This document shows positions 21,786 through 23,208 of a stretch of DNA of 25,026 nt, in pieces. The stretch comes from a virus. Location: positions 1 to 25,026 of the IMG/VR virus record IMGVR_UViG_3300036770_001658; one strand, given 5' to 3'. The position numbers and the translations under genes are program-made. The notes under the pieces are model-generated. The model worked only from the letters and a program-made list of their open reading frames with translations. It was not told the DNA's origin and did not search any database. How positions within the stretch are numbered: the stretch's first letter is position 1; the number at the start of each line of letters is the position of its first letter.

Positions 21786-21794
21786 GTGGGCTGT

Positions 21795-21810
21795 GTATCA
21801 CGAATGATAC
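21795..21810. promoter_or_regulatory. GTATCA-cgaa-TGATAC palindrome
   Basis: A perfect 6-bp inverted repeat with a four-base centre lies about 10 bases before the start of the 59-aa gene. On the minus-strand RNA it forms a UUCG-loop hairpin. It could be an operator or a leader hairpin. The rest of the 117-base gap (21786-21902) also contains GCCCCGA and TCGGGGC (21850-21856, 21878-21884), a 7-bp stem with a 21-base loop. Confidence 0.4.
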
Positions 21811-21902
21811 GTTTCCCGAACGTCTCGACGCTCTTTATCTACGGTCACGGCCCCGATAACGCCGCATTACGCCAGGCTCGGGGCGGGCTAATTAGATGGT
21901 TC

Positions 21903-22313
21903 TCACTTCGTCCGCTCCAGCAGCCCCCGCAGCGTGGCGGCGTGCCGCTCCACCGCATACGCCGAGCCAACGTATTCCACTGCGACCTCCAGGGCTTCAC
22001 GTTCCTCGTCTGTGATGGTCGGCCCCGCCCCGCCTACATCAGTGACCGACGCGGTGCGTGGGCCTTCGACGGGAGCAGGGCCGACGTTCTGGATGGCAAG
22101 CCGCATGGCGGTTTGGATCATCTGCGTGGCGCGTTCCTCGTTGCCGTCCGTCGTATCGCGGTAGTCCTGAGCGCAACTGACGCAGAACAGGATCGCCTCA
22201 ATCTGATCGTCGGTCAGCCGCAGCCGCTGAATCTCTTCGTACTGATCCTGCTCTCTCGCGGTGCAGCGGCAGTTTACGTCGTAGGGGCCGCAAATCGGAC
22301 AAGCAGCGTCCAT
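21903..22313 (-). CDS. Cys-rich small phage protein with LTDxE/LLER repeats, 136 aa
   Basis: The ATG at 22313 has GGGGAGG seven bases upstream (22321-22327), so the open extension further up is not used. The N-terminus CPICGPYDVNCRC and the central CVSC (C44, C47) could bind zinc. Residues 29 to 47 (QRLRLTDDQIEAILFCVSC) and the C-terminal ITDEEREALEVAVEY...LRGLLERTK repeat a theme also seen in the 23517-23747 gene. The two proteins appear to share a small helical module. No function is known. Confidence 0.68.
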   Translation of the reverse strand: MDAACPICGPYDVNCRCTAREQDQYEEIQRLRLTDDQIEAILFCVSCAQDYRDTTDGNEERATQMIQTAMRLAIQNVGPAPVEGPRTASVTDVGGAGPTITDEEREALEVAVEYVGSAYAVERHAATLRGLLERTK

Positions 22314-22330
22314 GCAATCGCCTCCCCTTG

Positions 22331-22501
22331 TCATGTTCCGCAGCAAAAAAACTGGCACGCCCAAACGATCAGCCCAGCCAATCCGAACACTACAACCGCC
22401 GAGAACAGTAGCCCGCCGAGCGTGGCTGGCGCGTCGCTGTCTGGCTCCCGCTGGTTAGCGGCAGACGCGGCGACGGCGGCGATCACTGCTGGGTCGATCA
22501 T
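22331..22501 (-). CDS. Small one-helix membrane protein, 56 aa
   Basis: The ORF begins MIDPAVIAAVAASAANQREP and has one clear hydrophobic helix (about 28 to 50, LGGLLFSAVVVFGLAGLIVW), ending CQFFCCGT. The first 20 residues are a helix rich in Ala that may be amphipathic. ATG at 22501 lies 4 bases from the edge of the attC-like palindrome, without a clear Shine-Dalgarno. It could be a holin-like or other small membrane protein, or a chance ORF; the long hydrophobic helix favours a real protein. Confidence 0.5.
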   Translation of the reverse strand: MIDPAVIAAVAASAANQREPDSDAPATLGGLLFSAVVVFGLAGLIVWACQFFCCGT

Positions 22502-22504
22502 GTG

Positions 22505-22587
22505 AGAACCACGCGATGCAGCGGACCCGCGATGCCGTCTGCGGAATGGTAAGTCAGCGGTCGCGGGCCGCTGATCGCTGGCGTTCT
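22505..22587. repeat. attC-like imperfect palindrome A
   Basis: AGAAC at 22505-22509 pairs with GTTCT at 22583-22587. After short unpaired spacers, GCGAT pairs with ATCGC. A bulged G follows, then CAGCGG pairs with CCGCTG, then there is a bulged A, then CCCGCGA pairs with TCGCGGG. A 28-base centre completes the fold. Both bulges are on the left arm, six bases apart. This is the layout of integron attC sites: R box, unpaired spacer, L box with extrahelical bases, variable loop. The outer box GTTCT departs from the attC consensus GTTRRRY. Confidence 0.6.
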
Positions 22588-22638
22588 GTGGCTACACGTT
22601 GCCGCAATACGTACATGAAAATATGAACATTATGGACG

Positions 22639-22923
22639 TTATTTCTCGCAAAGCGTTTCGTCGCAGCACTTTACGTCCCGCGCAATTCCATCCGAGTTTT
22701 GTGCCAATGCCTGCCACTTAGCCGCACGCTCCGCCATTGCCCACTTCTTTGCGTCCGCTGCCTCCGACTGCAACTGCTCCACGGTCGCAAGCAACTGAAC
22801 GAGGCAATGCCTCGCATCAACCATCGCATTGCCGGTCTCGCGTTCGCGGTCGGTGTTCCACTGCCCGCCAGCAAGTCGCTTTAGGTCTGCGATCACGCGG
22901 TCAACGGTCGGGAAGTCGCTCAT
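22639..22923 (-). CDS. Hypothetical 94-aa protein, flanked by attC-like sites
   Basis: The ORF is bounded by palindrome B just upstream (22946-22990) and palindrome A beyond its end. ATG at 22923 has only a weak GGAAAAAG upstream. The protein is helical, beginning MSDFPTVDRVIADLKRLAGG, with a likely coiled coil CLVQLLATVEQLQSEAADAK near the middle and a C-terminal CCDETLC. No family is recognised. The unit between the two sites is about 400 bases, a typical size for a gene cassette, so this could be a cassette gene read in the direction away from site B. The bases after its stop (22588-22638) are comparatively A+T-rich. Confidence 0.6.
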   Translation of the reverse strand: MSDFPTVDRVIADLKRLAGGQWNTDRERETGNAMVDARHCLVQLLATVEQLQSEAADAKKWAMAERAAKWQALAQNSDGIARDVKCCDETLCEK

Positions 22924-22945
22924 CTTTTTCCGATCCTACGCTCAC

Positions 22946-22990
22946 AGAACCACGCGATGCAGCGGACGAGCCGCTGATCGCTGACGTTCT
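22946..22990. repeat. attC-like imperfect palindrome B (short form)
   Basis: The first 22 bases are identical to those of palindrome A, and the last 21 differ from A by one base. AGAAC pairs with GTTCT, GCGAT with ATCGC and CAGCGG with CCGCTG. The bulged G is kept, and the variable loop is reduced to five bases (ACGAG). Two sites with the same arms but different central loops is what integron cassette ends look like. The direct repeat itself is certain; its role is inference. Confidence 0.6.
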
Positions 22991-22998
22991 CTAACGAC

Positions 22999-23047
22999 CC
23001 CGGCGGGGTTGGCTTGCCGCTTTATCAGTGCGGTGCCGCCCGCCGGG
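22999..23047. repeat. Inverted repeat CCCGGCGGG / CCCGCCGGG
   Basis: A perfect 9-bp inverted repeat (22999-23007, 23039-23047) with an internal CCGC/GCGG pair begins 9 bases after palindrome B. No U tract follows on either strand, so it is not an obvious terminator. The rest of the gap up to 23208 has no ORF I support on the minus strand. It contains the small GTTT-CGC-AAAC hairpin near 23094. Confidence 0.4.
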
Positions 23048-23208
23048 ATCGCTGTGCCATTGCAAATGCTAGGTACTTTTTCTTTCCGAACTAGGTTTCG
23101 CAAACGGCGTCAGTTTCCGCCTGTAGGGCCGGTACGGTATTTCGACATTATTGTTTCGGACGCAATCAGCCGGAAATGGTGTACCGACGCGACCTAGTGC
23201 GTGTACGG

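Follow-up and report, generated by a model that had tools for sequence, protein, structure and literature searches.

A small cassette array in a tailed-phage contig resembles an integron without integrase, probably served by the integrase of a planctomycete host

The window analysed here, a stretch of 25,026 nucleotides covering positions 1 to 25,026 of the IMG/VR virus record IMGVR_UViG_3300036770_001658, is predicted to contain a small array of gene cassettes which, with two attC sites and no integron integrase (IntI), corresponds to the definition of a CALIN, an attC cluster without integrase. This array is in all likelihood a phage integron devoid of integrase that would be served in trans by the IntI of the host. 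More broadly, it is likely, though held with some reserve, that planctomycete phages keep an integron platform of their own without integrase, made of an attI-like site and of inverted cassettes whose attC carries a translation start, and that they use host IntI at each infection; phage and host integrons would then draw on overlapping gene pools, some of them anti-defence. Integrons are otherwise known from bacteria, attC clusters in phages amounting to a handful of scattered cases.

The window contig is part of a tailed-phage genome, on which genes for TerL, the portal and the prohead protease were recognised, all on the minus strand, together with a possible minus-strand tape-measure gene that falls below the Pfam cut-off. 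The phage identity assumed in an earlier sequence-only reading was thereby confirmed, and BLASTN of the locus against deposited phages gave no match. Site A, which has a long loop, lies at 22507-22585 (from AAC to GTT) and site B, with a 5-base loop, at 22948-22988, the plus strand being the attC top strand in both. Their left arms are identical over 22 bases, their right arms show one mismatch in 21 bases and their loops differ. In the stem, GCGAT, a bulged G and CAGCGG face CCGCTGATCGC, and the ends are AGAAC/GTTCT. The position, arms and fold described by the sequence-only reading were all found again, and the attC form is made up of AAC...GTT ends, an imperfect hairpin with one additional base in the L'' arm, and a spacer left unpaired. 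When folded as single-stranded DNA, A and B outdo all or nearly all dinucleotide shuffles (minus strand, z -5.5 and -4.0, respectively). R1, a covariance model built from related sites of the same attC family, gave 53.6 bits for site B and, with default filters, 50.0 bits for site A; with filters off, site A obtained 8.8 bits and is underrated because of its long loop. In a search of Rfam, no family was found to cover sites A or B. The cuts would fall between 22583 and 22584 in site A and between 22986 and 22987 in site B.

Cassette 2 (22584-22986, minus strand) begins at the TT of site A, finishes at the G of its attC, site B, and contains one gene of 94 aa (22639-22923, minus strand). The array continues to the left beyond the pair of sites initially noticed. 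Cassette 1 (21900-22583, minus strand), which opens with the TT of the left end and closes with the G of its attC, site A, carries two genes, and the limits of both cassettes are drawn from own-end complementarity. It begins with GTTCTCACTTCGTCC, as do many other phage cassettes. Its second gene, missing from the earlier reading, encodes 136 aa (21903-22313, minus strand), with a TGA stop codon adjoining the cut point and AGGGGAGG upstream of the ATG. The other encodes 56 aa (22331-22501, minus strand) from an ATG located 5 bases from site A, and its hydrophobic stretch makes it, by inspection, a possible membrane protein. The 94-codon and the 56-aa ORFs were thus present as claimed, both on the minus strand; no Pfam match was obtained for the 56-aa ORF and no Pfam or PHROG match for the 94-aa ORF. 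Relatives of the 94-aa gene were found at 68-91% identity in three viral contigs. In L090, the relative of cassette 2 begins at the same G|TT but behind a different attC. In L090 (3127-3849), about 320 extra bases separate the 94-aa gene start from the attC, forming a larger cassette of the same family.

Three further elements were noticed in and around the array. Within the 136-aa gene and on the same strand (22019-22084, minus), the Rfam DUF3800-VIII RNA is matched at 61.5 bits. This match was also obtained in the related phages L148, L156 and L053, and an Rfam search of contigs with a DUF3800-VIII-like sequence after a site B-like end gave no match. Just right of site B, at about 22993-23062, a conserved hairpin element, CCCGGCGGG..CCCGCCGGG, is also found in 17 other fetched loci, nearly all of them attC-bearing contigs, and stands directly before the attI-like site in L071; it is possibly a leader, a promoter region or an array end. 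Finally, the short motif TGTGTATCACGAATGATACGTTTCCC at about 21786-21816 has a perfect GTATCA/TGATAC inverted repeat, is kept left of the array in L053, L154 and L156, and looks like an operator.

Sites A and B belong, as judged from sequence and predicted fold, to a widespread attC family. Phage loci were gathered by a single exact 20-mer of the left arm, AACCACGCGATGCAGCGGAC, a bait that undercounts divergent relatives; it occurs in at least 119 stretches of viral contigs. By comparison, it was found in just five contigs in a set of 84,980 bacterial and archaeal species; all five belong to metagenome bins labelled Planctomycetota, one of them as Kuenenia. A looser scan of the first loci fetched (1.15 Mb) returned 239 sites, frequently with several in succession, against zero in shuffled sequence; no phage locus had sites in both orientations. 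Covariation of the stem reached 0.367 versus 0.117 after shuffling, with 9 of 11 stem pairs changed on both sides; since rows were chosen for pairing, the percentage paired is biased, and compensatory changes are less so. The R boxes of attC sites are RYYYAAC and GTTRRRY. That the outer box departs from GTTRRRY, as previously remarked, proved general in phages (0 of 277 sites match) and would be a lineage trait, because host sites of the same family also depart from it (17 of 128 match).

An integron cassette is cut between G and TT, and the bases inside its two ends pair in the circle, the two flanks of one linear attC being derived from different cassettes. In 111 cassettes, the complementarity run was 4.01 for own ends versus 1.65 within the site and 1.71 +- 0.12 after permutation (maximum 2.15 in 2000). 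In the same way, the mean own-end run was 4.68 versus 1.94 +- 0.11 permuted in a larger set of 173 phage cassettes, and 4.16 versus 1.02 +- 0.15 in host cassettes. For the cassette between A and B, the run is 5 for own ends versus 2 within site A. Such own-end complementarity is best read as the fossil of a circular intermediate. Moreover, among 28 pairs of similar cassettes whose neighbours are unrelated on either side, the right-hand site was the more alike in 25 and the left-hand site in 2. The right-hand site thus travels with the gene, and the plus strand of the window would be the attC top strand, in agreement with what the side of the bulges had suggested. The right-hand site was nevertheless less than 75% alike in 12 of the 28 pairs, so that parts of sites would also be exchanged by other means. 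The clearest exchange was seen between L048 and L055, in which three cassettes at 100% identity follow the orders A-B-C and B-C-A with junctions at G|TT, in backbones that align at about 69% over 3.4 kb. Among relatives by TerL, the backbone is colinear with the window up to 21382 and then different; a clean empty site in a near-identical phage was not seen among them, as few of these contigs reach the array.

The proposal that attC-like sites bound a cassette is therefore upheld by covariation, own-end complementarity, exchange at G|TT and the presence of the same sites in genomes encoding IntI. A simple duplication of a hairpin, towards which arms confined to this locus or a gene fixed between the same sites in related phages would have pointed, is argued against by arms that are common in other viral contigs and by relatives that exchange cassettes with breakpoints at G|TT. 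Exchange by ordinary homologous recombination at the repeated 20-base arms, with the help of phage recombinases and without integron integrase, the attC form being a relic, would be favoured by arms that are long and identical and by the exchange of the inside of the right-hand site in the 12 pairs mentioned above. It appears improbable, as the own-end complementarity lies outside the arms and requires G|TT cutting in a circle, as the best-case breakpoints fall at G|TT, where the bases differ on one side and agree on the other, and as stem pairing has been kept by compensatory changes.

Cassette exchange by an integron integrase calls for a source of the enzyme, and the host is the probable one. 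Matches to the covariance model were found in 16 of 294 sampled Planctomycetota genomes and, in one Planctomycetota family, in 31 of 60 genomes with up to 18 sites per genome. An integron integrase, which the sequence-only reading had advised looking for in the host, was above the NCBI curated cut-off in 12 of 15 site-bearing host genomes, and the 20-mer and intI lie on one contig in three host genomes. On the contrary, none of 94 attC-bearing viral records, which are fragments but include contigs of 94-154 kb, had an integron integrase above the TIGR02249 cut-off. TerL was identified in 22 and portal in 21 of 50 attC-bearing viral records, with varied sizes and scores, so several phage lineages probably carry these arrays. 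Host genome G345 has cassettes in common with phages (98% identity over 334 bases, 96% over 228 and 89% over 363). Phages and hosts apparently trade genes through these cassettes, and the array-bearing viruses probably infect Planctomycetota. In addition, phage-type inverted cassettes were observed within planctomycete arrays at L227 (G045:C92) and L264 (G345:C23, 1-800), that of G045 standing directly after attI, the place expected for a recent capture; any direction given to the flow of cassettes would be conjectural.

The left ends of the arrays provide a second link with the hosts. The start of the first cassette was found by its complementarity to the first attC in 62 of 104 arrays (8.8 expected with permuted flanks), and about half of these 62 starts follow TTATNCGG..CCGNAGAAACACTG|GTT, with two inverted arms. 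An attI profile built from 30 sequences of this type matched host loci about 13-310 bases past the 3' end of intI in G363, G049, G375, G388, G369 and G364. Single host E-values are weak (0.03 to 1.9) and three shuffled controls gave one match, the strong part of the host evidence being the position beside intI. In phages, 34 of 36 profile matches are found immediately to the left of the first attC, and attC-bearing loci show no match anywhere else, a result that mainly indicates absence elsewhere, since the profile was trained on many of these sequences. An independent scan with the attI motif alone yielded 20 new places with enough sequence. An attC followed downstream in 16 of them, and in none did one lie upstream or on the opposite strand; of the four exceptions, two have no TATC arm and look accidental. 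The array of planctomycete G045 opens, after attI, with a cassette that begins with GTTCTGTGGCTACTT, like many phage cassettes, and whose gene appears to be inverted as in phages. The main left-end class of phage arrays resembles host attI. The idea that all left ends form one class was rejected, as four classes and some unclassified ends were found.

The left end of the window array belongs to a minor class without host match, outside the main attI class, and is the least certain part of the reading of the window. It was placed at 21857-21901 (plus strand), where ..GGGGCGGGCTAATTAGATG|G is followed by TT, with the putative cut between 21899 and 21900. At this end, the start of cassette 1 can pair with the left flank of site A over a run of 5, and GGGCTAATTAGATG|GTT recurs at the left end of the L002 array, with similar sequences in L003, L007, L043 and L148. 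That 21857-21901 is a divergent attC was discarded, as R1 gave no plus-strand match there and its kin stand at the left ends of other arrays. It is tentatively taken, with reservation, as an attI-like end.

A phage-encoded recombinase distinct from IntI would account for the 94 records without IntI and for the weak matches to other tyrosine recombinases in a few phage records. It is nonetheless quite improbable, as most site-bearing records have no tyrosine-recombinase profile match and as the sites and attI-like ends resemble those found beside host IntI. The supply of IntI by the host remains the preferred reading.

With orientation judged from the longest ORF, 144 of 172 phage cassettes have their longer ORF on the bottom strand of attC (median 294 bases) and 28 on the top strand, whereas 56 of 74 host cassettes carry it on the top strand (median 537 bases). 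The direction of the genes in the window, singled out earlier as unusual, is thus the general one in phages, and at all 20 sites located near TerL the orientation gives cassette genes the same direction as TerL. The stop codon ends at most 9 bases from the cut point in 165 of 184 phage cassettes. The outer box reads GTTCTCA (TGA), GTTATGC (TAA) or GTTCTGTGGCTA (TAG) instead of GTTRRRY, a departure for which these stop codons would account. At the other end of the gene, a Shine-Dalgarno sequence and an ATG are present in the loop of 126 of 183 long phage sites, and in 121 of these the reading frame translates the arm into S-x-A-S-x-G or something close to it; the corresponding count in hosts is 3 of 123 sites, none of which has this frame. 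An alignment of 122 otherwise unlike cassette proteins also has an S-x-A-S-x-G-type N-terminus in its consensus. The genes of sites A and B begin outside the site, by a few bases and by 24 bases, and both sites belong to classes without a built-in start.

Start signals inside so many phage sites would suit a hairpin acting as an RNA leader that controls translation of small genes, with repeats arising from leader copying and not from recombination. This is very improbable, as the host hairpin lies 3' of genes on the other strand without start signals, and as own-end complementarity, G|TT breakpoints and attI-like ends would be left unexplained. Host chromosomal integrons mis-assigned as viral contigs would have the same attC family and some cassettes common to host genomes, but this is equally improbable given TerL and portal on the same records, one orientation for the 20 sites near TerL, and phage cassettes that are inverted, about half as long, with starts in the site and no IntI in their records.

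In the integron-like mechanism that is preferred, a cassette unit consists of one or two genes and one attC, whose bottom strand would fold into a bulged hairpin. A tyrosine recombinase of the IntI family would cut between G and TT, and the cut cassette would leave as a circle or join another array or an attI-like primary site. The enzyme would most likely be supplied in trans by the host planctomycete, whose own integron shares the attC family and has an attI resembling the attI-like site of the phages. Lying on the attC bottom strand, the phage gene starts next to or inside its own attC, the loop of which often carries the Shine-Dalgarno sequence and the ATG, and stops at the cut point. Each phage cassette would hold all that it needs to be translated and would be read the same way as the terminase gene. 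Regarding the cargo, Pfam and PHROGs recognise few of the 122 cassette proteins, among which are DUF551 (19), C5, Dam and N6/N4 DNA methylases, Mom, HNH nucleases and phosphoadenosine phosphosulfate reductase. The methylases and Mom suggest that part of the cargo may serve the evasion of restriction.

CALINs have been reported in 21 scattered phages by Qi et al. 2023, and IntI1 recombined five of six tested phage attC sites (PMC9892861). As in that study, attC arrays without integrase are found here in phage genomes with methylase cargo. However, its two best arrays have genes in the usual direction (PMC9892861) and those described here are inverted; in addition, the present family occurs in more than 100 viral stretches, has an attI-like start, which goes beyond the CALIN definition, and has start codons inside attC. 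Integrons whose intI points towards attI are known from Treponema (PMC3607928). The sedentary chromosomal integrons of Planctomycetota have this arrangement and, compared with the phage arrays, the same attC family, a similar attI and shared cassettes; unlike them, they possess intI, top-strand genes and longer cassettes. In class 1 integrons, ORF-11 of attI1 and short ORFs in attC aid the next gene by reinitiation (PMC8876359). Recombination sites supply translation signals in both systems, but in phages the cassette's own attC starts its own inverted gene and the arm becomes the N-terminus. Neither inverted cassettes with a start in attC nor a phage-wide family combining them with its own attI-like site was found in the open-access papers searched.

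Altogether, a group of environmental phages appears to rely on integron parts, namely a capture site, exchangeable cassettes and an enzyme that would be borrowed from the host. This would open a concrete path along which genes pass between phages and host integrons, and it is a candidate explanation for the rapid turnover of accessory genes in phages; it also presents a recombination site that has been turned into a translation start.
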